Part shown: positions 5,883-64,000 of the stretch, piece after piece
Layout: each line of letters begins with the position of its first letter
Position numbering within the stretch: the stretch's first letter is position 1
Source of the DNA: Thiogranum longum
Lineage (GTDB): Bacteria; Pseudomonadota; Gammaproteobacteria; DSM-19610
NCBI RefSeq assembly: GCF_004339085.1
Contig: NZ_SMFX01000001.1
Coordinates: forward strand, 629,580-693,579
Length of the DNA stretch: 64,000 nt
Reading direction: 5' to 3'
Position numbers and translations under genes: made by a program
Notes under the pieces: generated by a model
What the model saw: only the letters and a program-made list of their open reading frames with translations
Databases searched by the model: none
What the model was told of the DNA's origin: nothing

Positions 5883-6362
5883 TTAAGGGTTGGCGCGGTT
5901 CAGTTCGCGCACGGCTTCGAGTACTTCATCGACGTGACCATCGACCTTGACCTTGCGCCACTCACGACGCAATTTTCCGCTGGCGTCTATCAGGAAGGTA
6001 CTGCGCTCTATGCCCATTACTTTCTTTCCGTACATGTTTTTTTCCTTGATGACATCGAACAGTTTGCACAGGGCTTCATCTTTGTCCGATATCAGTTCAA
6101 AAGGGAACGCCTGCTCTGTCCTGAACTTTTCATGCGAGGCAAGACTGTCACGTGATACGCCGACTACCACGGTCTTGTTGCGGCGGAACTTCGCAATATT
6201 GTCACGGAAATTCTGGCCTTCCAGTGTACAGCCCGAAGTGTTGTCCTTAGGGTAAAAATAAATCACCACATTTTTGCCCTTGTGGTCAGAGAGGCGAAAA
6301 GTGCCACCGGTCGACTCGGCGCTGAAGTCAGGGACTTTCTTGTTGAGTTGTACAGCAGGCAT
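5883..6362 (-). CDS. bcp: Thioredoxin-dependent peroxiredoxin, Bcp/PrxQ type
   Basis: A 159-residue cytoplasmic peroxiredoxin that reduces hydrogen peroxide and organic peroxides. The active site is FYPKDNTSGCTLEGQNFRD, with the peroxidatic Cys in the GCT motif. The resolving Cys found five residues later in E. coli Bcp is absent (Gly-Gln here); one other Cys occurs in ALCKLF. It is therefore either a 1-Cys enzyme or uses a distant resolving residue. ATG 6362 matches the family N-terminus and leaves 5 bp to gcvR. The gcvR-bcp adjacency is also found in E. coli. Confidence 0.93.
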   Translation of the reverse strand: MPAVQLNKKVPDFSAESTGGTFRLSDHKGKNVVIYFYPKDNTSGCTLEGQNFRDNIAKFRRNKTVVVGVSRDSLASHEKFRTEQAFPFELISDKDEALCKLFDVIKEKNMYGKKVMGIERSTFLIDASGKLRREWRKVKVDGHVDEVLEAVRELNRANP

Positions 6363-6367
6363 GGTGC

Positions 6368-6898
6368 TTATCCTTTTACAGGCTCGATCACGGCATCCAG
6401 GTTCAGCCGGTCGCAAAAGTCCAGGAACTCCTCGCGCAGGGTGGCGATATGGGTGCTGGCGGGTACATCCAGCACCATGTGTACCGCAAACATCTGCGTG
6501 CCGGTATGCGCGGCGGCATAGGTCGAGGTGGAAAGGTCCTGGATGTTGATGTTGCGCTGGGAAAAGAAGCTGGCCAGGTTATGGACGATGCCAGGGTGGT
6601 CGAGGGCAACCACATCCACACCATAGGGCAGGTAATCGCCTTCGGCAGGTCTTTGCTCGGTACGCTTGATGTGCAGCGTCATGCCCAGCTGGTCCTGCAT
6701 CGCGTCACACTGGTTTTCCAGTTTGGCAAGGTTGTTCCAGTTGCCGGTCACCAGCAGCAGCACAGCGAACTCACCGCCCAGCACAGTCATTCGGCTGTCG
6801 GCAATGTTGCAGCCACTGTCTGTCACCCAGCCTGACAGGCGGTCGACCAGTCCGGGCTTGTCCTCGCCCAGCGCAGCTATCACCAACTGGTTATTCAT
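6368..6898 (-). CDS. gcvR: Glycine cleavage system transcriptional repressor GcvR (tandem ACT domains)
   Basis: A 176-residue protein made of two ACT domains. The first starts with LVIAALGEDKPGLVDRLSGW and the second with VVALDHPGIVHNLASFFSQR. In E. coli GcvR has no DNA-binding domain and blocks the activator GcvA when glycine is present. No gcvA or gcv operon lies in this window. It sits between galT (15 bp away) and the peroxiredoxin (5 bp), with dapA nearby on the other strand, an arrangement close to the dapA-gcvR-bcp region of enterobacteria. The ACT fold is certain; the exact regulatory target is inferred from the family. Confidence 0.87.
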   Translation of the reverse strand: MNNQLVIAALGEDKPGLVDRLSGWVTDSGCNIADSRMTVLGGEFAVLLLVTGNWNNLAKLENQCDAMQDQLGMTLHIKRTEQRPAEGDYLPYGVDVVALDHPGIVHNLASFFSQRNINIQDLSTSTYAAAHTGTQMFAVHMVLDVPASTHIATLREEFLDFCDRLNLDAVIEPVKG

Positions 6899-6913
6899 GC
6901 GTGCAGCCTACCA

Positions 6914-7996
6914 CTAATCCAGTACCACGGCACGTAGCTGTTCGGCGGCTTCTTCCGGGCTGATAGTGCTGACAAAAAGACCTGATCCCAGCTCGAAGCC
7001 GGTCGGTATGCTGGTGCGTGGGCAGATCTCCATATGCCAGTGATAGCTGTCCTGGCAGTGACTGAAATCATTGTTGTGCGGCAGTGAGTGCAGGAAGAAA
7101 TTGTACTGTGCCCCGCCGATCACGGCGTCCAGTCGTGCCATGGCGCGTTTCAGTACTCGCGACAGGTCTTCGCGCTGCGCGTCGTTAATTTCGATGAAAT
7201 CGCTGGCGTGCTGCAAAGGCAGGATGTGCACTTCCCACTCGTAGCGGCTGGCAAAAGGTTTAATGGCAACAAAGTGCTCACCACGCTCGATCACGTACTG
7301 GCCAACGTCGATTTTACGCCGCACCGAACCAGACTCACGGTCATAGATCTTGGCCTCAAATGTCAGTGCTTCGTCGATCAGTGAGCAGAAAATACACTGC
7401 CGGTTCTTCTCGAAATATTGACGGCTGTGAATAACCTCGTTGTATACATTCTCGGGCACCACCGGCATGGCGATGACCTGGCTGTGGGTGTGCGCGATAC
7501 TGGCGCCGGCGGCAGGGCCGAAGTTTTTGAAGACCAGGACATATTGTATGCGTGCATCGGCGTCGTACAGGGCGCGGATGCGGTCCCGGTACATCCCGAT
7601 CAGACGAAACAGGTGCTCCTCGGACATTTCGTGAAGGGCAATACCGTGCTCCGGGTGGTCAATTATGACTTCGTGGCGACCGTAACCGTCGATAGCCTGC
7701 TGCAGTCCGAATACCAGGTTGCCGGAGTTGCTTTCGTCACCCAGAACCGGGTAGAGGTTTTCCACCACCCGCACCTGCCAGTCTCCGGTTTCCGGGCTTG
7801 CCGCGACGGTAGGCGGGGTCATTGCTTCATTGCCGGGACAGAACGGGCAGCGGTCCACGTGCTTGCGCGTGTCGCGCGGGGCAGGCGCTTCCTCCTTGCG
7901 CGGCCGCATGCCGCGGGCGGTGGATACCAGTACAGATTCACTGGGAACGATGGGGTTGATGCGGATTTCGCGGATAGTATCGGGCTGATCGCTCAT
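6914..7996 (-). CDS. galT: Galactose-1-phosphate uridylyltransferase-like nucleotidyltransferase
   Basis: A 360-residue HIT-superfamily enzyme. The zinc-site CPFCPGNE is near residue 50 and the nucleotide-accepting histidine motif is AHTHSQVIAMP. Classical GalT has His-Pro-His at this site; here the middle residue is Thr, as in a divergent bacterial branch. It probably exchanges UDP between glucose-1-phosphate and galactose-1-phosphate, though related proteins act on other sugar phosphates. It heads a minus-strand operon and is divergent from dapA across 178 bp. No other Leloir-pathway gene is adjacent, so a role in glucan or sugar-nucleotide metabolism is possible. Confidence 0.85.
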   Translation of the reverse strand: MSDQPDTIREIRINPIVPSESVLVSTARGMRPRKEEAPAPRDTRKHVDRCPFCPGNEAMTPPTVAASPETGDWQVRVVENLYPVLGDESNSGNLVFGLQQAIDGYGRHEVIIDHPEHGIALHEMSEEHLFRLIGMYRDRIRALYDADARIQYVLVFKNFGPAAGASIAHTHSQVIAMPVVPENVYNEVIHSRQYFEKNRQCIFCSLIDEALTFEAKIYDRESGSVRRKIDVGQYVIERGEHFVAIKPFASRYEWEVHILPLQHASDFIEINDAQREDLSRVLKRAMARLDAVIGGAQYNFFLHSLPHNNDFSHCQDSYHWHMEICPRTSIPTGFELGSGLFVSTISPEEAAEQLRAVVLD

Positions 7997-8174
7997 AATG
8001 CTTTGCCAGTTGGTAAGGTAGGCTAATTATCATCGCCCAGCGCGAGATGGAAACCAAGGGTTGCTGAATCCGGTATTAATTGGACTAATCAGGCGGCGGC
8101 AGAGGGTCGCCCGCGCTTGTCAGCAGCGGGGTGGAAACGTAACATGCGGCTAGATTTTCATGGTGGAGAGTTCG

Positions 8175-9065
8175 ATGTTTCACGGCAGTATGGTGGCACT
8201 GGTCACGCCCATGCGCGAGGATGGTGCGATCGACGAGGACAGCCTTGAAGGTCTTGTCGAATTCCACGTTGCCGCAGGCACCGATGCTATTGTGGCCGTG
8301 GGTACGACGGGCGAATCTGCGACCATTAATGAAAAAGAGCACTGCGCACTGCTGCGCCGCATTGTTGCCATGGTGGCCGGACGTATACCGGTTATTGCCG
8401 GCACAGGTGCAAACTCCACCCAGGAAGCCATCGATTTGACCCGCTGTGGTATGGAGGCCGGCGCCGACGCCTGCTTGCTGGTGGTGCCGTATTACAATAA
8501 ACCCACACAGGAAGGGTTGTATCAGCACTACATGGCCATAGCCAGGGCGGTGCCAATCCCCCAGATCCTGTACAACGTGCCGGGGCGAACGGTGTGCGAT
8601 ATGTTGCCGGAAACCGTTGAGCGCCTTGCGCCTGTCGCCAATATAGTCGGCATAAAGGAAGCCACCGGTGATCTGCAGCGTGGCAGGGAGATCCTGGAGC
8701 GCTGTGGCGACCGGCTGGATCTGTACAGCGGAGATGATGCAACCGCCATGGAACTGATCCTGTTGGGGGCCAGGGGGGATATCTCCGTGACCGCCAATGT
8801 GGCACCAAAAGCCATGCATGATATGTGTGCGGCTGCGCTGGCAGGTGATCGCGAAACGGCGGAGAAAATCGACAGTACGCTGCGTGCCCTGCACCGCGAC
8901 CTGTTTATTGAGTCCAGCCCGATCCCGGTCAAATGGGCTTTGCACGAAATGGGGATGATTCCGCCGGGCCTGCGTCTGCCCATGACGCCATTATCGCCAG
9001 AATGTTATCAGCCGGTTCGCGAGGCATTGCGTCAGGCCGGCGTGCACGAGATTTCCAATGCCTGA
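8175..9065 (+). CDS. dapA: 4-hydroxy-tetrahydrodipicolinate synthase
   Basis: A 296-residue class I aldolase that condenses pyruvate with aspartate semialdehyde in lysine and peptidoglycan (diaminopimelate) synthesis. Clear family motifs are MFHGSMVALVTPM at the start, VGTTGESATI, AGTGANSTQEAI, PYYNKPTQEGLYQHY and GIKEATGD, whose Lys forms the Schiff base with pyruvate. ATG 8175 matches the universal MF(T/H)GS N-terminus; an upstream in-frame ATG at 8160 is less likely. Its 3' end lies directly against the bamC gene, the same pairing as in E. coli. Confidence 0.98.
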   Translation: MFHGSMVALVTPMREDGAIDEDSLEGLVEFHVAAGTDAIVAVGTTGESATINEKEHCALLRRIVAMVAGRIPVIAGTGANSTQEAIDLTRCGMEAGADACLLVVPYYNKPTQEGLYQHYMAIARAVPIPQILYNVPGRTVCDMLPETVERLAPVANIVGIKEATGDLQRGREILERCGDRLDLYSGDDATAMELILLGARGDISVTANVAPKAMHDMCAAALAGDRETAEKIDSTLRALHRDLFIESSPIPVKWALHEMGMIPPGLRLPMTPLSPECYQPVREALRQAGVHEISNA

Positions 9066-9090
9066 ATCGAAAACAAGCGGACCTTTATCT

Positions 9091-10215
9091 ATGCCAGAAA
9101 ATTTCATTGCCCTGCGTATCCTGTTGCCTGTCCTGTTGCTGTCCGGTCTGTCCGGGTGCGGCACGCTGGACCGGATGTTTCCGGATCGCAGCGGGGACTA
9201 CAAAAAAACACAAACTGAATCGGCGCTGGATGTACCTCCTGACCTTACCTCGACCCCGGTCAATGACGCCCTGGTAGTACATGACGGAGCCGCTACGCTG
9301 TCCGGTTATAACAGTGCCACCCAGACACGTAAAAGCGCCAGCGGGCAGGTGTTGCCAACACCGGAAGATATGAGTATTGAGCGTGACAAGGATCGCGCAT
9401 GGCTGGTTATCAAAGGTGATCCGGCCACAGTCTGGAATCGGGCAAGACAGTTCTGGCTTGATTCGGGGTTTCTGATTAGCCGTGAAAATCCGGAACTCGG
9501 GGTGCTGGAGACCGACTGGGTGGATAGCCAGGTGAATGCCCCCGGCGATATTATTCGTAACACTATCAGCCGTGTCTTCCAGAGTGCCTATTCATCTTCG
9601 CTACGCGATCGTTACCGGATGCGCCTGGAGTCCGGCGAAAAGCCGGGTACTACCGAGATCTATATTACCCACAAGGGGTTACAGGAAAAACTGGAAGGTC
9701 GCACTGACGAAATCCAGACCACTGTCTGGGAACCGCGGCCCAGCGATCCTGGCCTGGAATCGGAAATGCTGAAGCAGATGATGGTTTATCTTGGCGCCAC
9801 ACCACAGCGTGCCGAGCAACTGCTTTCATCACAGCAACCTGCACCTGACAAGGCGGAATTGACCAAGCTGGGTGACGGGCAGCCGGTACTGGTACTTCAC
9901 GACAGCTTTCCACAAGCCTGGCGCCGCGTCGGTATCACGCTGGACCGGATTGATTTTGCTGTCGAGGACCGGGACCGTTCAGCGGGCACCTATTTCGTGC
10001 GTTACAACGATCCGCTGAAACAACAGAAAAAGGGGTTCCTGTCGAAACTGGCATTCTGGTCAGATGATGAAACCGACAAGGTAACCACCTACCAGATCAA
10101 ACTGGTTGATGATGGAGCGGATACACGCGTGATGGTTCTGAACGAAAAAGGTGAAGCTGAAACCACCGTTACCCCTGTTCGTATTCTGACGCTGCTCTAC
10201 GAGGAACTGAGATAG
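9091..10215 (+). CDS. bamC: Outer membrane assembly lipoprotein BamC
   Basis: A lipoprotein subunit of the BAM complex that inserts beta-barrel proteins into the outer membrane. From ATG 9091 the protein has 374 residues with a signal peptide ending in the lipobox LSGC (Cys 23). After it comes the BamC N-terminal region ALDVPPDLTSTP, which binds BamD, then two helix-grip domains (PATVWNRARQFWLDSGF and then QAWRRVGITLDRIDFAVEDR). An alternative ATG at 9058 overlaps the dapA stop by 8 nt and would lengthen the signal peptide by 11 residues, and I cannot exclude it. Location next to dapA is typical. Confidence 0.92.
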   Translation: MPENFIALRILLPVLLLSGLSGCGTLDRMFPDRSGDYKKTQTESALDVPPDLTSTPVNDALVVHDGAATLSGYNSATQTRKSASGQVLPTPEDMSIERDKDRAWLVIKGDPATVWNRARQFWLDSGFLISRENPELGVLETDWVDSQVNAPGDIIRNTISRVFQSAYSSSLRDRYRMRLESGEKPGTTEIYITHKGLQEKLEGRTDEIQTTVWEPRPSDPGLESEMLKQMMVYLGATPQRAEQLLSSQQPAPDKAELTKLGDGQPVLVLHDSFPQAWRRVGITLDRIDFAVEDRDRSAGTYFVRYNDPLKQQKKGFLSKLAFWSDDETDKVTTYQIKLVDDGADTRVMVLNEKGEAETTVTPVRILTLLYEELR

Positions 10216-51175: not shown

Positions 51176-53068
<1,893 letters not shown>

Positions 53069-53173: not shown

Positions 53174-55705
53174 ATGGGCGAGATAATCGTCAAGCATTTC
53201 AGGCGTGCCGATACGACCTCGGAGCAAAAGGAGCTGGTTACCGAGATCGTCGTCGAGGATTCGGATACCGGGCATTTTCTCAGGCGTGTTGAAGAATCCC
53301 GTCTTACCCGCCCCTGTTTCCAGACTATCGACATGCGCGGAAAGGTGGCTGGCGAATGTCGGCGTTATGCTTTCAATGATCGTATCCATTATCTTGATGA
53401 TCTTTCCTTCCAGATGTTCGAACGCGGCCTGCACGAGAACAACGGCGTGTATACCGTCGGCACTTTTGAGTCAATTGTCGGGGGAGCACACACGCTTCAG
53501 GCGCAGATAAATGCACGTGATGAAGCAGAACTTCGCCGTCAGGAAATTGAAAAACGACGCCTGCAGAGAACGCGTGATGCTGCGCGTGAACGTGCCAGGG
53601 TGGATGGCGTTGACGCTGTTGAGGATATACAACCGGTTATTGCGGACAATCCTGAATCGTTGCCACTCGGGTACTTTCGCAAGAGAGACCATCCCCGTCT
53701 CCAGTTCGCCTCCAAGGTAAGGTTACAGAGCGGCAACATTCGTAGCGATGGTATCACCCGTGATATTTCTGTCTGTGGTATCCAGGTTCGCATTAAAGGA
53801 TTGACCACCTTCCAGGAAGACCAGAAACTCCAGGTATCATTGACTGGCCTGCACGACAAGGCAGGCAATGTACAGTTCGATGATGTCCTATATCGGGTTG
53901 TCCGTATCCAAACGCATGAAGCTGATAGCACCCTGTTTCTGCGCCGCGTGGATCTTGACGGGCCGGCCGGGTTTTCAGATTTTATTTCAGGATTTATCGA
54001 GGAAAACCGGCGACGCTACAAGCTGGATGTGGATGATGAGTATACGTCGACATTGAGCTGGTATTACGAGCGCTGCCATGCGCAAAGTATCACCCAGCTG
54101 CCGGTATTTGTCGAGAAAACCGGGGCAGATACTTTACGCGTGCAGGCGGTTGCCATGAGTGAGGGCAATACCTACCTGGCGCGTTTCTTCTGTACGGATG
54201 TTGATAATTATGACTTCAGTCCCCTTGCTCTCCCGGCGCGGCTTGAGCGGCTGGCGGAGAAGGGTGAGTTTGTCATGGCGATGTATCGCCACAAGGGCGA
54301 TGGTGATGACCGCTTACGCCTGCATTCTGCAGCTGATTTCGAGTTTGCAACAGATGCTGATTTCTACCGCTTCATCTATTACGCCGCCAGTCAGCCGGAA
54401 TACAGTGTTGTGAAAGTGCAGGTCGGCAGTATGCCGTTACTGCAGGCATCAGGTAAGAAAATCGATGAAATCTCGCAACGTCTGCAATACAAGTCTGAAT
54501 CCCGGATGAAGGTATTGCGTGAGCAGCTGGCGCGCCTGTTCTTTGTCGCCTACGTGGTGGATATGACCCATAAGTACACGGGCCTGTCCATGAATGATAA
54601 GTCGATTGATGGACTGCAAGCCTGGGTTGGTCCCGAATGCCGGAATCTTTCAGATGGCGGGGTGAAAAAATCACTGGATCCTTCACGCGAGTTACTCAAG
54701 ACTGACCTGGTGCGCTTTGGCTATGTCGAGCGGCGTCGTGAAGATCGCTATCTGGCCGAGACCCGTGTGGACGTGAAAATCGGTGATCGCAGCCTGGAGG
54801 GGTTGTCAAAGGACATTTCAACGCGGGGGATTCGTATTCAGCTGAACAAGTGCCTTGCCGTCAAGCCCGGTGCGCCGGTCAAGGTGGGGCTGGTGTCCCT
54901 GCAGCAGAAGAAGTCCGGTGCCAACCTCATGGATATTCCCTACCTGGTGGTCAACTCGGTCAATAATGACGAGGGCACGGTGATCATGCTGGAGCGTGTT
55001 CTGGGTAGTGCGAAAGAAGGTCTCAAGGAATTCTTCGTTGAGCTGATCACCAAGAATGAGCACAAGCTTGGCGTGGATACCGGTGATATCTGGAGTGCAA
55101 CAACATCGAGGTTGTACGAGTCGCTACTGGCCGCCAATACGCCTACCATTCCGTTTTTCCTGGGTCGAAATGCGGAAGGTGGCGCACATCTGCAATTTGT
55201 GGGTGTCCCGGAAGGTGGCAACAAACTGCTTGATTTCTTTGAGACCGAAAGCGGGCACGATTTCCGTTGCGTCAACGATCGTCGTGTTGTCACAACCTTG
55301 TATGACGCGATTCAGATTCTTGTCCGTCGGCAGAAGGCATCACAGGAGCCTCCGGCACCCTTTGAGCTTGAGCTGTATCTGTATCGGGAGCGGGATGAGG
55401 AAACCGGTGAGACTTATATCCATGCCGCGACCGAACTCGATTTTACCAGTGATGCCGGGCGTGAGACCTACCTCCAGCAACTGGTTGGGAGGGAGGACTG
55501 GCGTTGTCTGAAGATTGTGACTACGTTTGTTCATGCTCTGGATGAGAAGTCAGTCGACAAGCTGGTTGCTTCAGTGAGGGAGCAGTCGAAGCATCGTGCG
55601 ATCAAGCTCTCGGACCTGGCGCATTCCGTAGTGGGATGCGGTGAAGTCATCGATATCTCCCGCCAGTCGGGGGCCCGGCGAGGGCTTGTGAAGCCGGAGT
55701 CCTAA
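53174..55705 (+). CDS. Large protein with two PilZ domains and an internal duplication
   Basis: An 843-residue cytoplasmic protein. ATG 53174 has GGGAGAGA upstream; a GTG at 53150 is less likely. Residues 110-150 are a charged helix. Two PilZ domains carry both cyclic di-GMP motifs: R171-x3-R175 with D197-x-S199-x2-G202, and R521-x3-R525 with D547-x-S549-x2-G552. The distance between motifs is identical (26) and the two copies are 350 residues apart. Each is followed by a similar roughly 170-residue region of unknown fold (compare [12 protein letters not shown] with [12 protein letters not shown]). It lies between parE and parC. It should be a cyclic di-GMP receptor; the output is unknown. 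Confidence 0.9.
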
Positions 55706-55776: not shown

Positions 55777-58020
55777 ATGTCCACAGATACTCTTGTCGAA
55801 GGCACGGAAACGCTGCCACTGCACACCTTTACCGAAAAGGCATACCTGGATTATTCCATGTATGTCATTCTCGATCGTGCCCTGCCACACATCGGCGATG
55901 GCCTGAAGCCGGTACAGCGGCGCATTGTCTACGCTATGTCCGAGCTCGGCCTGTCGGCACGGGCCAAGTTTAAAAAATCGGCACGTACGGTAGGCGATGT
56001 ATTGGGCAAGTTTCACCCACACGGTGATACTGCCTGTTACGAAGCTATGGTGCATATGGCGCAACCCTTTGCTTTCCGGTACCCCCTGGTTGACGGGCAG
56101 GGCAACTGGGGTGCGCAGGACGACCCTAAATCCTTTGCAGCCATGCGCTATACCGAGGCACGTCTTTCGGCCTTTTCAGAAGTCCTGCTGGCCGAACTGG
56201 GTGAGGGAACTGTTGACTGGACGGCCAACTTCGACGGTACCTTGCAGGAACCGATCCTGCTGCCCGCACGCCTTCCGGTGGTGCTACTGAATGGCGCAGC
56301 CGGTATCGCCGTCGGGATGGCGACAGATATCCCTCCACATAACCTGCGCGAGGTGGCTTCCGCCGCCATTCACCTGCTGGAGAAGCCTAAGGCGACAGTG
56401 GATGACCTGTGTGAATATATCCAGGGTCCCGACTACCCGACAGGGGCAGATATTATTACGCCGCGTGATGATCTGGTGCGCGCGTACCATACCGGGAGTG
56501 GTAGCGTACGAATCCGTGCACGCTACGAGTCGGAGAGTGGGGATATTGTTGTCACCGAATTGCCCTGGCAGGTATCTGGCGCACGGGTGCTGGAGCAGAT
56601 TGCGGCACAAATGACGGCGAAGAAGTTACCGATGGTTGCAGATCTGCGCGATGAATCCGATCACGAAAATCCAACCCGGCTGGTTATTGTACCGCGTTCC
56701 AGCCGGGTAGATATCGATACCATCATGCTGCACCTGTTCGCGACAACCGATCTGGAGCGCAGTTACCGCGTCAATATGAATATGATCGGGCTGGACGGCC
56801 GTCCGGCTGTCAAGGACCTTCGCACGCTGCTGAAAGAATGGCTGGAATTCCGGGTTGGCACGGTGACGCGGCGTTTGCAGTATCGTCTCGACAAGGTGCT
56901 CGATCGTCTGCATATCCTTGATGGCTTGCTGGTCGCATACCTGAATATCGATGAAGTTATTGCCATTATCCGTGGCGAAGATGAGCCACGACCGGTGCTG
57001 ATGAAACGATTCAAACTCAGCGAGCGGCAGGCGGATGCCATTCTGGACCTCAAACTCCGACACCTGGCAAAACTGGAAGAAATGAAAATCCGTGGTGAGC
57101 AGGAAGAGCTGGCTGCCGAACGTGACAGTTTGCAGAAGACCCTGTCATCTAAACAGCGTTTACGCACGCTGGTAAAAAAAGAAATTACCGCCGATAGCGA
57201 AAAATTCGGTGACGACCGCCGTTCTGCGCTGGTGAGTCGTCCGGCCGCGCAGGCTATGGATGATACTGCGCTGGTACCCAGTGACCCGGTAACCATTGTA
57301 TTGTCGGAGAAAGGCTGGGTGCGTGCTGCTAAGGGACACGAAGTCGATCCTGAAGCGCTCAGTTACAAGGCCGGTGACAGTTTTCTCGCAGCAGCGCAGG
57401 GCCGTAGTAACCAGCAGGTCGTATTCCTTGACTCTACAGGCCGGGCCTATACGCTGACTGCTCACAGCCTGCCCTCGGCACGTGGTCAGGGTGAGCCGCT
57501 GACCGGCCGGTTTAACCCGCCGGACGGTGCTCATTTTGTGGGTGTTATGGCCGGGGATGCAGACAGCCTGTATCTGCTGGCGAGCGATGCCGGCTATGGT
57601 TTCGTGGCTCGCATCGGTGATCTGTATGCGCGTACAAAGGCCGGGAAATCCGTGCTGTCGGTGCCGAAGCATGCGCGAGTGCTACAACCGGTTCCGGTAG
57701 TCGACCCGGAAGCTGACCAGCTGGCGGCCATTGATCTGCAGGGCCATATGCTGGTTATCCCGACTGTGGAAGTGCCGCGCCTTAATCGCGGTAAAGGTAT
57801 CAAGATCCAGGGTGTCAATGCGAAGAAACTGGCCGCCGGCGAGGAGCGTATGGTCGCCGTGGTGAGCGTGCCGCAGAATGGTTCGCTGGTTCTGCATGCG
57901 GGTAAACGGCACCTGAAACTGAAAGCCTCAGAGCTGGCGCTATACCAGGGGGATCGGGGCCGCAAGGGCAAGAAACTGCCACGTGGCCTGCAGCGGGTCG
58001 ACAGGGCATTTGCTGAATAG
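55777..58020 (+). CDS. parC: DNA topoisomerase IV subunit A
   Basis: A 747-residue DNA-breaking subunit. Motifs include [20 protein letters not shown], the quinolone-pocket segment [18 protein letters not shown], the catalytic Tyr in [11 protein letters not shown], and a C-terminal beta-pinwheel with [10 protein letters not shown]. The residue equivalent to E. coli ParC Ser80 is Thr, which keeps the hydroxyl group. It works with ParE, encoded one gene upstream. Confidence 0.98.
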
Positions 58021-58486: not shown

Positions 58487-59710
58487 ATGTCCCTGATTCG
58501 TCCCTTTGCCGGCCTGCGGCCGGTACCAGAACGCGCCAACGATGTGGTTGCGCCGCCCTACGATGTTCTCAATAGCGAGGAAGCCCGCGAACGGGCAGCT
58601 GACCGCCCACTGAGCTTCCTGCACATTTCAAAGGCTGAGATCGACCTGCCGCCGGGCACAGATCCTTATGATCCTGCGGTATATGCCAAGGCCGCGGAAA
58701 ACCTCAACAAGCTGGTCGCGGAGGGTGTGCTCAGGCGCGAAGACAAGCCGGTCTATTACGTTTACCGTCTGACCATGGGAGATCATGTACAGACCGGGCT
58801 GGTTGCCGTTGCATCCGTTGCCGATTACGACAAAAACCGTATTCGCAAGCACGAGTTTACCCGTCCCGCCAAGGAGGATGATCGCGTGCGCCAGATCGAG
58901 GCACTGAATGCACAGACCGGCCCGGTTCTGCTGGCATACCGGTCACAGGACGATATTGATGCGCTGATTGACTCGGCAACAAATAACCCACCGGAATATG
59001 ACCTGGTTGCAGACGATGGTATCGGGCATACCTTCTGGGTGCTCGATGACCCGGCAACCATCGACAGACTCACGGACGGGTTTGAGGCGATGGAGGCGAT
59101 TTATATTGCTGATGGCCACCATCGTTCGGCAGCGGCATCACGCGTGGCGGCCAGCAAAAATGGTCCACCCGATGCCATGAGCCGTTATTTCCTGTCAGTG
59201 ATTTTCCCGCACAAACAGATGAAGATCCTGGATTACAACCGGGTGGTTAAAGATCTCAACGGACTGAGTGAAATGCAGCTGCTGGAGAAGATTGCCACAG
59301 CGTATGACGTCAACCAGTCTGCGGAACCGGTATCGCCATCACGGCCGGGAGAGTTTGGAATGTACCTTGGAGGCCAGTGGTATCGCCTGAATATCCACCC
59401 GGAACGAATTCCCGAAGACCCGGTGGCGCGCCTCGATGTCAGTCTGCTGGCCGACAACCTGCTGGAACCGGTGCTGGATATCAGTGACCCGCGTACTGAC
59501 CCCCGCATTGATTTTGTCGGTGGGATCCGCGGCCTGGGTGAACTTGAGAAACGCGTGGACAGTGGTGAGATGGCTGTCGCATTTTCCATGTTCGCCACGA
59601 CCATGGAAGACCTTATGGCGGTGGCCGATGCCAACGAAGTGATGCCGCCCAAGTCAACCTGGTTCGAGCCCAAGCTGGCAGACGGGCTGGTTTCGCACGT
59701 ACTCGACTAG
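58487..59710 (+). CDS. DUF1015 family protein
   Basis: A 407-residue cytoplasmic protein of the DUF1015 family, recognised by IRPFAGLRPVPERANDVVAPPYDV, shown by its core VVAPPYDVLNSEEARERA, YYVYRLTMG, RHEFTRP-like RKHEFTRPAKEDDR, and the central IADGHHRSAAASR. Some members are annotated as SpoOJ/ParA/ParB-like or kinase-associated, but no function is established. In bacteria it is often found near serA/serB genes; none is here. Its stop overlaps that of the convergent FimX-like gene (shared CTAG). Confidence 0.93.
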   Translation: MSLIRPFAGLRPVPERANDVVAPPYDVLNSEEARERAADRPLSFLHISKAEIDLPPGTDPYDPAVYAKAAENLNKLVAEGVLRREDKPVYYVYRLTMGDHVQTGLVAVASVADYDKNRIRKHEFTRPAKEDDRVRQIEALNAQTGPVLLAYRSQDDIDALIDSATNNPPEYDLVADDGIGHTFWVLDDPATIDRLTDGFEAMEAIYIADGHHRSAAASRVAASKNGPPDAMSRYFLSVIFPHKQMKILDYNRVVKDLNGLSEMQLLEKIATAYDVNQSAEPVSPSRPGEFGMYLGGQWYRLNIHPERIPEDPVARLDVSLLADNLLEPVLDISDPRTDPRIDFVGGIRGLGELEKRVDSGEMAVAFSMFATTMEDLMAVADANEVMPPKSTWFEPKLADGLVSHVLD

Positions 59711-61794
59711 GCGACTTCCCCGGTGAAATCGTAGCTGAGTGTTTCGCTTGGCTCTTGCAGGAAGTTACCCTGGATAAAGTTGATGCCGCTCTGCCAGAGA
59801 ACAGCCAGGCTGTGTGCATCCTGAACATATTCTGCAATACATTGCTTGTTCATCGAATTGGCAGTGTCCAGTATCGATTTCACCATTGCCTGGTTATCAG
59901 TATCACTGGCCAGATTGTGGATGAAAGAACCATCTATCTTCAGATAATCGACCGGCATATGCTTGAGTAACTGGAAGGAGTTCGGGCTGGTGCCGAAGTG
60001 CTCCAGTACGGATTTACAGTGCAGTTCCTGCAATGCCTTGGCAAAGCTTTTCGCCTGTTTCAGATGTTGGGAAGCGATTTTTTCGGAGAGCTCGAATACC
60101 AGTGCGTCACCCGGCAGGCGATGTTCTTTCAGGCTGTTACTGACAAAATCCACCAGTTTTTCATCCAGCAGTGTTTGCCCCGAGACCTTGATAAAAAACT
60201 GGGTGTCTGAGCCCTGTGAGCGATGTTCCGATAGCGTCTTGATAGCATTCTCGATAACCCAAAAGTCGATTTCTGCAGTCTGACCGGTTTGCTCGGCAAT
60301 TGGCAGGAACTGACTGGGCAGAATATGTTCTTCCTCATCGTTAATCATGCGCAGCAGGACTTCGTATTTCTCACTGGTATCGCCCTGCAGGCTGACAATT
60401 GGCTGGAAAAGCAGCCGGAACTGGTTGTGTTCCAGTGCATCCTTTATCAAGGCATGCATTTGCTGGTCGCGTTCCTTGCCGATTTTCTCGTCGACCACCG
60501 GGTTGTGCAAATGGATCTTGTTACCGCCCGAGGAACGGGCAACCTCACAGGCCAGGTCTGCACGGGAAATAACTTCGTGAGCTGACGGCGAACTTTCACT
60601 GATAATGCTCATGCCGATACTGCAGGTTGTCGTTATTGATTTTCCTTCAATGTCGGCAATGTGGTCTTCGATAGACTGGCGAAGATTTCCCCCTAATGCA
60701 GAAATTGATTCGTGGTCGCAATCCTTGCGCAGGATGGCGAAAGAGTGATCACCAAAGCGTGCGACAATATCAGTGTCCTGTGTGTGCTCACGCATCAGGT
60801 CGGCGATGTCGCTGATGACCATGTCTGCCGCACCTATGCCAATGTTATCCTTGATGTCCTTGAAGTTGTCTACCAGCAGGTAAATCAACGCGGCATTTTC
60901 CGAACCGCTTACGGCATTTGTAACAGCCAGCTCAAGCTCTTCGATAAAGTACTGGCGATTAAACAGGCCGGTGAGTACATCCTGTTTGCTGAGGAATTTG
61001 ATTTTTTGTTCAAGCTCCTTGCTGGATCCTGCCTGGTTGCGAATGATGATCTGTGTACAGGCCTCGCCTTCAATGCTGGCAGGAGAGAACTCCATTAAAG
61101 CATCGAACTGTTTCCCGTCAGGCAGCTGTCCGTGTGTCTTCAATGAATCTTCCGTGGCTTCTTCCTTGCTGAAATTGCGCAGAAATTCCTTGAATTTTCC
61201 GTGCTCTTCCGGTGCAACCATATCGAGAATCGGCGTGCCTTCAATCTCATCGATGTTTTCAAAACCAAACATTTCCAGGTAGGAACTGTTGGCGAAGATA
61301 TGCATGCCTTCGTGTACGTAGGCAATGGCATCACGTGAGCTTTCCATCAGCGAGCGGGCGCGCTTCTCGCTTTCGTGGAAACGGGCTTCGAAATTATGAC
61401 CCTTGCTGGTTGAGCTGAGTTGGCGTAGTTCGCGCTGGGCAACCAGTTGCAGGTGCTCGGGCTGGTCGTAAGAACACAGGTCGGACGCACCCTGACGCAT
61501 GGCCTCGATAATTTCAGCCTCATCGGCTGTTTCGCCGATAGCGACCAATGGAGCAGGGACTTCACGTTGTTTCAGAAGAGCGGCTATATCGGGGAGTGAT
61601 GCCGATTCCAGTCCCATGGCACACAGCACAAGATCCGGAATATGTTTGTCCAGCAGGGTATTTATGCCATTACAGTCTTCAGCATAGTCCAGGCGGGATG
61701 CCTGCCCGGCATTTCTTAGGATATTGGCAAGGGCTTCTGCATCGTTGCGGGATTCCTCAACGATCAGCAGACGCAGAGTTTGGTCCTTGTCCAT
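59707..61794 (-). CDS. fimX: FimX-like cyclic di-GMP receptor: receiver-PAS-degenerate GGDEF-degenerate EAL
   Basis: A 695-residue protein, close to the 691 of Pseudomonas FimX. A receiver-like domain (1-125) lacks the phosphate-accepting Asp (DLVLCAMGLE). A PAS domain (about 140-255) follows. The GGDEF site is degenerate: RFGDHSFAIL at 346-355. The EAL domain keeps EVLLR (E478) but has LEHFGTS (597-603) instead of DDFGTG, so catalysis is unlikely and binding is expected. FimX controls type IV pilus assembly and twitching through PilZ and PilB. ATG 61794 gives a normal receiver start; a longer frame to 62112 is unlikely. The parE-parC-fimX neighbourhood also occurs in Pseudomonas. Confidence 0.85.
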   Translation of the reverse strand: MDKDQTLRLLIVEESRNDAEALANILRNAGQASRLDYAEDCNGINTLLDKHIPDLVLCAMGLESASLPDIAALLKQREVPAPLVAIGETADEAEIIEAMRQGASDLCSYDQPEHLQLVAQRELRQLSSTSKGHNFEARFHESEKRARSLMESSRDAIAYVHEGMHIFANSSYLEMFGFENIDEIEGTPILDMVAPEEHGKFKEFLRNFSKEEATEDSLKTHGQLPDGKQFDALMEFSPASIEGEACTQIIIRNQAGSSKELEQKIKFLSKQDVLTGLFNRQYFIEELELAVTNAVSGSENAALIYLLVDNFKDIKDNIGIGAADMVISDIADLMREHTQDTDIVARFGDHSFAILRKDCDHESISALGGNLRQSIEDHIADIEGKSITTTCSIGMSIISESSPSAHEVISRADLACEVARSSGGNKIHLHNPVVDEKIGKERDQQMHALIKDALEHNQFRLLFQPIVSLQGDTSEKYEVLLRMINDEEEHILPSQFLPIAEQTGQTAEIDFWVIENAIKTLSEHRSQGSDTQFFIKVSGQTLLDEKLVDFVSNSLKEHRLPGDALVFELSEKIASQHLKQAKSFAKALQELHCKSVLEHFGTSPNSFQLLKHMPVDYLKIDGSFIHNLASDTDNQAMVKSILDTANSMNKQCIAEYVQDAHSLAVLWQSGINFIQGNFLQEPSETLSYDFTGEVA

Positions 61795-62016
61795 AGGGTA
61801 TAGTGCTCCTGAATTCAGTTTTTTCTCGCCAGCTGTTTTGGCTGGTAGTGCGCTTACATTGTTTCGGCAGCATGGGCTACATTCTTTACCTCCTGATCGT
61901 GACCAAATAGCCATTCCTGCTGGCGTCGTAACCCCTTTTACATAAACAGGTTTCCTGCTAGCATGAAGACATACGGCCAGCCTATGAGGCCGCACAGGAC
62001 CAGCCGGGGACAGGGT

Positions 62017-62538
62017 ATGCAACAGATCAGGGTGCGGGCTGAAACTCCCGACGACTTCAGCGCGATTGATGTCGTGAATCTCAGTGCTTTTGAAGGTGAG
62101 GCCGAGGCGCAACTCATTGGTGAATTACGAAAGTCACCAACCTTCATACCGGACCTGTCGCTGGTGGCAGAGCTCAATGGCCGTATTGTTGGCCATGTGG
62201 TGTTGTCCAGGGTCAAGCTTGTTTCCGATCAGGGTGAAAGCGAAATACTTGCACTGGGTCCGATGTCGGTCGTGCCCTCGCAATCACACCGGGGTATTGG
62301 CTCGGAACTTATCGATGCTGCCGTTGCACGAGCCAAACCGCTTTGCTACAACGCCATCGTGGTGGCCGGGCACCCCGATTATTACTTGCGCTTCGGATTC
62401 AGGCCGGCATCTGAATGGGGCGTGACCTGTAATCTGCCAATACCGGATGATGCCCTGACGGCAATGGAATTGGTCGATGGTGCCCTGTCAGGTGGGGGAG
62501 TTGTCGAGTATCCCGACTTGTTCAAGGCATTATTCTAG
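62017..62538 (+). CDS. GNAT-family N-acetyltransferase (YhbS-like)
   Basis: A 173-residue acetyltransferase with IRVRAETPDDFSAIDVVN at the start, the acetyl-CoA site LGPMSVVPSQSHRGIGSELID and YYLRFGFRPASEWGV near the end, a pattern of the YhbS group. The substrate is unknown. ATG 62017 gives the family N-terminus. Divergent from the FimX-like gene; its stop codon abuts a repeat element. Confidence 0.9.
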   Translation: MQQIRVRAETPDDFSAIDVVNLSAFEGEAEAQLIGELRKSPTFIPDLSLVAELNGRIVGHVVLSRVKLVSDQGESEILALGPMSVVPSQSHRGIGSELIDAAVARAKPLCYNAIVVAGHPDYYLRFGFRPASEWGVTCNLPIPDDALTAMELVDGALSGGGVVEYPDLFKALF

Positions 62539-62721: not shown

Positions 62722-64000
62722 CTACAACAGCTCCCAGACATCATCGAAGTCGCTACTCATCGTTTTTGAAGCGGGTTTCTTTTGACCGGGGAGCTTTATT
62801 TCGCCCAGTGCCGTGAACTGGAACTGGGCAAAGCTGCCGGTGTTCTCCACCAGTTTTGTCAGCTCAACGCGGACATTTTTTCCATGGCAGTTGATAACGG
62901 CCGAGTCACCGACCCTGAAGGGTGGTGAGGGCAGCAACAGGGTTGCGCTCTGCTGTATGCTGGCAATTTCAGGTAGCAGCAAGCCGCGGGTAAATTCATG
63001 GTTTTTCGTTCCCCGCTGTTCAGGCTGTCCGGCAATTGCAACGGCGCCCGGTGACAGCATTTGTACACCGAGTTCCAGCCCGCGTTTGTCGGCAAATTTC
63101 AGCCAGCGAATTACGCCCAGCCGCCAGTGAAATGTATCCGGGTCACTTTCTTCACGGATTCCCAGCAATTCGCCTACCTGGGCACGGGTGGTTTCAAGGT
63201 TGTCCCACAACAGGCAGTATCCGCCGGCGCTGATATTGACCATTTTCCAGTTCTGGGTGCGGTGGCTGGTGTTGATCTGCATCCCGGAAGCCGCACGGGC
63301 TACAGCCGTTTCCAGATTGGAGGGCAGCGCTTCTCCTTCAATCCGGTAGTTCATTTCCCACACGTCAGGCATATTACCTTCGCTTGCCCTTACATCACGT
63401 GCGCCAAAGCTGGCAGGTTCCTGAATATGCGGGACGGGCCCCGGGTCGGCGGAAAGATCGGTGTGACACTTTTTGCTGACGGGTGTCTGGTTGAAGACGG
63501 CCTCGCCACTGACAAAATAGTGGATAGAACTCAACCCCATCGACACGATGACCTGTGACTGGTCTTTTACACGGGAATAACGGCGTTTTGGCATAACACC
63601 CCATACCAGCATCAGGTGCTTGATTGTGGACAGTTTAATGCCGGTCGGGCGACTTTCCCGGGTTTCGCTTATGGCCTTGCGGGCATGCTCTGCAAGGCGG
63701 CCTGTATCCAGGGTTCGGGTAGTACCGCAATTCTCGTTGGTATCCCTGAGGACAAGATAACTGGGAGGCTCATCGCTATCCAGATTTACGGAAAAGAGTG
63801 CGTTCGGTTTTTCTTCGAGCATTTTAAGGTCGCTGAATTTTGCCCAGTCTTCCAGTGCATTATAGATATCTTCAGCTTCACCATGGCGAAGGCGATAAGG
63901 GCAGGCCAGCGCGAGCAGTAAAATTTGTTTGTAGCAGTCTGTGACAGTTGATGTGTGTTGAACGGCCGCAACAACGTCCATGACTTTATTGCGATGCAGG
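62722..64000 (-). CDS. PilZ-like protein, C-terminal part (5' truncated by window edge)
   Basis: The frame is open to the right edge; at least 425 residues are visible and no start can be fixed, though an in-frame ATG occurs at 63981. Motifs of PilZ type are seen: RRYSR (RxxxR form) followed by KDQSQVIVSMG, and NISAGGYCL (NxSxxG form) about 110 residues later. The distance is longer than in a normal PilZ domain, so the domain may be split or these may be halves of two domains. The protein has no membrane segment. It could be a cyclic di-GMP receptor; family not named. Confidence 0.65.
   Translation of the reverse strand, partial: LHRNKVMDVVAAVQHTSTVTDCYKQILLLALACPYRLRHGEAEDIYNALEDWAKFSDLKMLEEKPNALFSVNLDSDEPPSYLVLRDTNENCGTTRTLDTGRLAEHARKAISETRESRPTGIKLSTIKHLMLVWGVMPKRRYSRVKDQSQVIVSMGLSSIHYFVSGEAVFNQTPVSKKCHTDLSADPGPVPHIQEPASFGARDVRASEGNMPDVWEMNYRIEGEALPSNLETAVARAASGMQINTSHRTQNWKMVNISAGGYCLLWDNLETTRAQVGELLGIREESDPDTFHWRLGVIRWLKFADKRGLELGVQMLSPGAVAIAGQPEQRGTKNHEFTRGLLLPEIASIQQSATLLLPSPPFRVGDSAVINCHGKNVRVELTKLVENTGSFAQFQFTALGEIKLPGQKKPASKTMSSDFDDVWELL

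Follow-up and report, generated by a model that had tools for sequence, protein, structure and literature searches.

Gene, protein and domain organization

Between parE and parC, the window (the whole analysed stretch of 64,000 nucleotides from Thiogranum longum) holds an open reading frame for a protein with two PilZ domains, here called the double-PilZ protein (Table 1). The frame is open throughout, and a purine-rich stretch lies ahead of its ATG. Two stretches of the whole protein are matched by the Pfam family PF07238 (PilZ), at 65.3 bits against a gathering cut-off of 22.5, and the two copies reach 37.0 and 36.3 bits when scored separately in a genome scan. A PilZN/YcgR domain is missing from the Pfam matches at E up to 1, a level at which a very divergent one could escape, and a YcgR-like make-up (PilZN-PilZ) was ruled out for lack of such a match. 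Matches to ProQ_C (E 0.087) and CelA (E 0.0013, 16.9 bits against 699.1) were rejected as well, both being below cut-off and falling on the second PilZ domain. At the level of the whole protein, no solved structure resembles it by sequence at E up to 10, and profile searches of solved structures returned only the PilZ stretches and chance rows. The conserved N-terminal module has near-invariant residues at C48, D53, R55, G56, C62, D75, G91, T94, G96 and E99.

Table 1. Features of the double-PilZ locus (positions in the window)
Feature	Position	Strand	Basis or remark
parE (TIGR01055), neighbour	51182..53068	+	105 bases upstream of the double-PilZ gene
Double-PilZ protein, 843 aa (P0001), PlzC-like	53174..55705	+	open reading frame, Pfam, model
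N-terminal module, residues 1-110, conserved, single copy	53174..53503	+	alignments, model; no Pfam match
Long helix, residues 108-143, bridging N-terminal module and unit 1	53495..53602	+	predicted model
PilZ domain 1, residues 166-272, RxxxR 171-175, DxSxxG 197-202	53669..53989	+	Pfam, alignment, fold
Unnamed alpha/beta domain copy 1, residues 282-472	54017..54589	+	self-alignment, profile, model
PilZ domain 2, residues 516-622, RxxxR 521-525, DxSxxG 547-552	54719..55039	+	Pfam, alignment, fold
Unnamed alpha/beta domain copy 2, residues 632-835	55067..55678	+	self-alignment, profile, model
parC (TIGR01062), neighbour	55777..58020	+	71 bases downstream of the double-PilZ gene
FimX-like REC-PAS-GGDEF-EAL neighbour	59707..62112	-	GDHSF/EVL replace usual motifs; start codon uncertain

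A single old duplication of a PilZ and alpha/beta unit

A preliminary description had proposed that the protein arose by internal duplication of a PilZ domain together with the domain behind it, and this is borne out by sequence, profile, predicted structure and tree. Both PilZ signatures that it named are intact (R171/R175/D197/S199/G202 and R521/R525/D547/S549/G552), lie 350 residues apart, and are accompanied by two anchors, at 285 and 635, that keep this offset. The exact spacing holds up to about residue 342; past that point there are one gap and two insertions (13 and 4 residues) in the second copy. In a self-alignment, residues 166-444 align with residues 516-808 with a score of 212 (61 of 276 aligned residues identical), whereas shuffled sequences averaged 37 and never exceeded 69. 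The similarity reaches outside the PilZ motifs, as the post-PilZ parts alone score 111 (shuffle mean 30, best 64) and the PilZ parts alone 105 (best shuffle 56), and in each of these three comparisons 0 of 2000 shuffles reached the real score. The sequences ahead of the two PilZ domains have no mutual similarity (811 of 2000 shuffles scored as well). Because the repeat continues to a common strand ending in D-(M/I)-(T/S), at about residues 465 and 829, the unit is about 305-317 residues long.

The same relationship was recovered from relatives of the protein. Profiles of the two post-PilZ domains, each built from 41 diverse relatives that are 19-84% identical to the window protein, match each other over 182 columns with a probability of 99.9% (E 5.5e-32). 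An AlphaFold model computed with the same 41 rows (mean pLDDT 88.9, pTM 0.81) has an identical order of strands and helices in both units, including the parts after the PilZ domains, with a longer helix in copy 2 (703-722). In a tree of 82 units, one branch separates the 41 first units from the 41 second units (support 98/94); this split occurs in 98% of 200 bootstrap trees, and the root is left unfixed by the data. Since one branch splits all first from all second units, the duplication predates the divergence of the sampled members, and a single old duplication of the PilZ and alpha/beta unit is shown.

The domain behind each PilZ had been described as having no recognised motif, and neither window copy matches a Pfam family over cut-off: copy 1 has no match, and copy 2 has one at 16.7 bits against 33.7. 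For either copy, no Pfam family reaches an E of 1 or lower in more than 2 of the 41 members. Modelled alone, residues 282-472 form a mixed alpha/beta fold (pLDDT 90.6). The top Foldseek match to this domain is a weak one to a LOV domain (5j3w_A, E 0.012, probability 0.92), and the top structural alignment from VIA-align is 5luv_B (Z 5.2, rmsd 6.1 over 118 aligned residues), which is in the range of unrelated matches. LOV/PAS domains lead both searches, with GAF domains and phytochromes lower down and all of them weak. The predicted model therefore hints faintly at PAS/LOV and GAF as the nearest folds, which serves as a lead and not as a classification; the domain may belong to a family outside those listed in the searches.

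Two putative cyclic di-GMP sites

In the predicted model, both PilZ domains take up the PilZ barrel fold. Copy 1 is closest to MotI (5vx6_A, Z 14.2, rmsd 2.3 over 108 aligned residues) and copy 2 to 4p00_A (Z 13.3, rmsd 2.2 over 104), and the two domains match MotI, PP4397, BcsA, MapZ, YcgR (5y6f, Z 12.1) and VCA0042 (3kyg, Z 12.0) at Z 12-14. The only invariant columns in the 41-row alignment are R171, R175, R525, S549, G552, F620 and D827. Of the 41 relatives, 32 have complete cyclic di-GMP motifs at both sites and 39 have them at site 2. All nine incomplete rows are Methylophaga-like: eight have T or A in place of S199 and A in place of G202, and L059 has T and S, so site 1 has degenerated in these members, seven of which retain a complete site 2. 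The Methylophaga-like proteins (L055-L062, L124) are also shorter, at about 730-750 residues. For YcgR-type proteins, the available part of one article describes the first PilZ-like domain as often highly degraded (PMC10333796).

A further 50 aligned rows come from another order, seemingly that of Alteromonas (L054) and Aeromonas (L178) to judge by likeness, and every one of them has both motifs complete. These rows represent 47 distinct genes, three being repeat fetches of the same genes; L176, which aligned in pieces and has both motifs, was left out. Given these complete and conserved motifs, each PilZ domain is predicted to bind cyclic di-GMP through RxxxR and DxSxxG.

Gene neighbourhood and the topoisomerase question

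The position between the two topoisomerase IV genes had raised the question of whether cyclic di-GMP touches chromosome segregation or whether the arrangement is only linkage. The gene does sit between parE and parC, and the 18 named contigs L034-L051, from Thiohalobacter, Thiogranum and other Gammaproteobacteria, all have this order, as do L107-L109 (G254, G140, G101), but it is confined to one group. Among 20 loci of the other order, radA and serB are both in the flanks in 11, one of them in 6 and neither in 3, and parE and parC are absent from the flanks of about 6 kb in all 20. The stretches around L053-L062 and L110-L126 also have no parE or parC, and in other members of the family the genes found at a distance of about 1 kb or less are those for tldD, an aminotransferase, a ribonuclease D-like protein, a radical SAM protein or an AFG1-type ATPase. 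The location between parE and parC is thus shown to be inherited local linkage, and a topoisomerase IV link was rejected, as relatives of the same architecture sit beside radA and serB or beside unrelated genes. A coupling of cyclic di-GMP to chromosome segregation through topoisomerase IV is highly improbable for this protein. It would suit the short gaps of 105 and 71 bases, in which terminator-like sites are no commoner than chance, so that parE, the gene and parC may be co-transcribed, but besides the many loci with no topoisomerase gene nearby, parE lies 1.6 kb away from the gene even in two members of the window family (L046 and L047).

The radA setting is repeated in individual records, as radA-gene-serB-deoD in G403 and as radA-gene-serB in an Aeromonas caviae record; in E. 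coli K-12, serB adjoins radA with no gene in between. In Vibrio cholerae, radA and serB are VC2343 and VC2345, which flank VC2344 (plzC). The family is probably the PlzC family, an identification with VC2344 that draws on gene order. Relatives from the other order share the radA/serB setting with PlzC and are matched end to end by profile A2 (for example, E 8e-105 for L170), whereas the window copy differs from it by lying between parE and parC. Rows L061, L062, L111 and L116 of profile A2 begin upstream of a start codon or have none.

Other PilZ-like genes were seen near these loci. In the window, a 419-residue protein at 62722-63981 (-) has a sub-threshold PilZ match at residues 236-310 (16.7 bits against 22.5), and it recurs near the FimX-like gene in L031 and L033. 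In Alteromonas sp. a30, a small protein on the other side of radA (L054, 3879-4244, +) resembles, by eye, a stand-alone PilZ protein.

Co-inheritance with the polar flagellum

The presence of the gene was compared with that of FlhF (the polar-flagellum GTPase), PilM and FliG in 247 genomes of the other order, with FliG used to tell polar from other flagella. Presence of FlhF and PilM was set by gaps in E-values, giving totals of 155 and 165 that equal the totals over cut-off. In the gene search, which gave 152 matches, eight (f188 g278, E 6e-5 to 1e-3) were weak and confined to the PilZ stretch, and these genomes were counted as lacking the gene; four weak matches over the PilZ stretch (G134, G180, G223, G346) in another search, with 33 matches, were set aside.

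Gene and FlhF occur together in 143 genomes and are both absent from 91, with FlhF alone in 12 and the gene alone in a single genome (G417) that is 75% complete. The gene is thus found in 143 of 155 genomes with FlhF and in 1 of 92 without it. Fisher p-values ignore relatedness, and agreement within families was relied on instead: in f139, f188, f191, f201 and f205, families that include genomes with and without the gene, gene and FlhF agree in 88 of 88 genomes. The discordant family is f184, in which 11 of 15 FlhF genomes lack the gene and the same 11 lack PilM. It is the one family with many polar-type flagellates that lack the double-PilZ gene; G501, G514 and G604, for example, have FlhF and FliG with neither PilM nor the gene. 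Divergent second copies of the gene were found in f191, in L175 (G609) and G579:C60 (E 1.6e-59 and 5.7e-57).

FliG is over cut-off without FlhF in 28 genomes, and the gene is absent from 27 of them, the exception being G417. One genome, G432, has FlhF and the gene with no FliG detected. In G492 and G611, which lack the gene, there is only a FliG relative below cut-off, of a strength like that of the second copies in G385 and G412, which hints that lateral flagella do not retain the double-PilZ gene.

Losses can also be seen at the radA-serB site itself. In four genomes of f201 g291 without FlhF (G591, G621, G611 and G465), radA and serB are 362, 723, 174 and 220 nt apart, compared with 2632 nt in G403 (g291), where the interval holds the gene. 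Similarly, the distance is 104 nt in G483, from which the gene is absent, and 2316 nt in G407 of the same genus. The family profile has no match at E up to 1 in the intervals of G591, G621, G611, G465 and G483 (frames of at least 90 residues). In G434, a radA-serB interval of 2589 nt carries other frames, none of which matches the family profile. This comparison leaves out G492 (L198, with no serB match in the stretch), G393, G589, G390 and G414.

Outside this order, the coupling with FlhF is looser. The window genome has FlhF, FliG and PilM, and among 56 of its relatives, 17 of 20 gene-bearing genomes have FlhF over cut-off. The other three are G008, which is 82% complete, G010, whose FlhF is partial and lies at the end of a contig, and G053. 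The one-contig genome G053 lacks FliG and has no FlhF match above cut-off, and its gene is broken into several frames (L028, about 6300-9300), with some long frames nearby intact; either the gene may have decayed once the flagellum was lost, or the assembly may contain errors. As many as 16 of the 33 FlhF genomes among the relatives lack the gene, and polar flagella can therefore work without it, as is also seen from the 12 such genomes in the other order. What is new here is that presence and loss of the gene track FlhF in one order, and not topoisomerase. Co-inheritance with FlhF is distinct from interaction, and the counts are raw and not corrected for the species tree.

Relation to known PilZ proteins

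The plzC gene of V. cholerae is VC2344, and the available portions of the literature report that PlzC binds cyclic di-GMP (PMC4624772), with 0.1-0.3 uM given for binding by PlzC and PlzD (PMC10519070). In the accessible discussion of another study, only PlzB and PlzD of V. cholerae are said to bind with considerable affinity (PMC3131395), so that the reports on PlzC disagree (PMC4624772; PMC3131395). Effects of plzC on motility, biofilm and colonisation have been reported (PMC10653909; PMC3131395), and the accessible part of a 2022 review states that PlzC promotes biofilm at high cyclic di-GMP only, with a mode of action that is "not clear" (PMC9303241). Mention of a two-unit make-up or of a link with the polar flagellum was not found in those portions of the PlzC literature that were available.

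PilZ proteins that act on flagella are already known as YcgR, PlzD, FlgZ and MotI, which in the available descriptions have a PilZN-PilZ make-up with the motifs in the second domain, whereas the double-PilZ protein is without a PilZN match, has both of its sites complete and carries a further domain behind each PilZ. In the accessible text on Shewanella putrefaciens, none of five PilZ proteins is noticeably YcgR-like, and MotL acts on lateral and not on polar flagella (PMC8203827). Proteins with two intact PilZ domains have been reported before. A survey, as far as its text was available, describes proteins with two consecutive PilZ copies and binding motifs in both (PMC11800159); the present protein differs in having a related domain of about 190-200 residues after each PilZ. 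According to the available part of its description, PixB of Myxococcus xanthus has two PilZ domains, cyclic di-GMP binding and a motility phenotype, but it also has a GNAT domain, and its PilZ domains are without the Ser of the second motif (PMC8316039); binding by the double-PilZ protein is a prediction. Leptospiral YcgR-GAZ likewise combines PilZ with a GAF-like domain, which in the accessible text is inserted inside PilZ, in single copy and together with PilZN, in Spirochaetota only (PMC11800159), whereas here the alpha/beta domain follows each PilZ. A two-unit PilZ protein of this make-up was not found described in the available portions of the literature searched.

Proposed function and alternatives

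The double-PilZ protein is interpreted here as a PlzC-like cyclic di-GMP effector with two sites that acts in polar-flagellar motility and in attachment, with a probability of roughly 0.6, and it is probably a motility switch that merely adjoins the topoisomerase genes. One PilZ and alpha/beta unit was duplicated once before the sampled members diverged. In the proposed mechanism, cyclic di-GMP would bind at each PilZ through the RxxxR and DxSxxG motifs and may shift the PilZ against the alpha/beta domain behind it, which could serve as a protein-binding face. Two sites might give a steeper or a graded answer to rising cyclic di-GMP. The co-inheritance with FlhF points to the polar flagellum or its pole machinery as the putative target, and as the signal rises the protein would curb swimming and favour attachment.

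The main alternatives concern type IV pili and surface life in general. A role as a regulator of type IV pili, perhaps in the window group together with the FimX-like protein encoded 4 kb downstream and with the flagellar correlation as a secondary effect, appears quite unlikely. The GDHSF/EVL motifs of this neighbour resemble those of Pseudomonas aeruginosa FimX. In 9 of 14 window-genus loci its gene is found beyond parC and a DUF1015 gene, and the remaining five stop short of that place; the two proteins may perhaps work together, but the FimX-like REC-PAS part was matched in none of 48 loci tested outside the window group. In the 247 genomes, the gene and pilM are both present in 138 and both absent from 76, with pilM thus in 138 of 144 gene-bearing genomes, and 11 of the 12 genomes with FlhF and no gene also lack pilM. 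FlhF and PilM are both present in 139 genomes, of which 138 carry the gene; it is also carried by 5 of the 42 genomes that have one of the two and by 1 of the 66 that have neither, so that joint action with pili is conceivable. Against pili as the main partner, 27 genomes keep pilM without the gene, including all 25 gene-less genomes of the five concordant families, and pilM is missing from 6 gene-bearing genomes, among them G545 and G568, where it is not over cut-off.

A general switch for biofilm or surface life, which would follow the polar flagellum only through a common lifestyle, is rather unlikely. It would agree with the biofilm effect of PlzC at high cyclic di-GMP that the available part of the review reports (PMC9303241), and with the smaller numbers of GGDEF matches in several genomes without FlhF: four of f201 have 9-23, compared with 38-63 in five that have FlhF (about 62 candidates scored at most). 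However, with the same ceiling of about 62 scored candidates, G492 and G589, which are without FlhF and the gene, have 57 and 46 GGDEF matches. Their congeners with FlhF are similar in this respect, as four of the five examined have 51-63 and the fifth, G418, has 13. Because these two genomes keep so many matches, cyclic di-GMP signalling is not lost along with the gene, and GGDEF matches were present in 46 of 46 genomes examined. The near-total lack of the gene from genomes with FliG and no FlhF also argues against a switch of this general kind and is consistent with a polar-flagellar effector.

Significance

A more far-reaching version of the polar-flagellar reading is put forward tentatively, as a possibility with the odds against it. 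Across much of the Gammaproteobacteria, the family could supply the dedicated cyclic di-GMP effector that has been missing for the polar flagellum. It would be a receptor with two sites, and its alpha/beta domains, as an undescribed family linked to PilZ, would dock on the motor at the pole or on the FlhF/HubP machinery there. Loss of the polar flagellum would then bring loss of this receptor, even in genomes that keep other flagella, pili and cyclic di-GMP signalling. Flagellar effectors of the YcgR kind carry their motifs in one PilZ domain, and here a widespread protein with two sites is tied to the polar flagellum in one order. The double-PilZ family thus points to how polar flagellates may read cyclic di-GMP.
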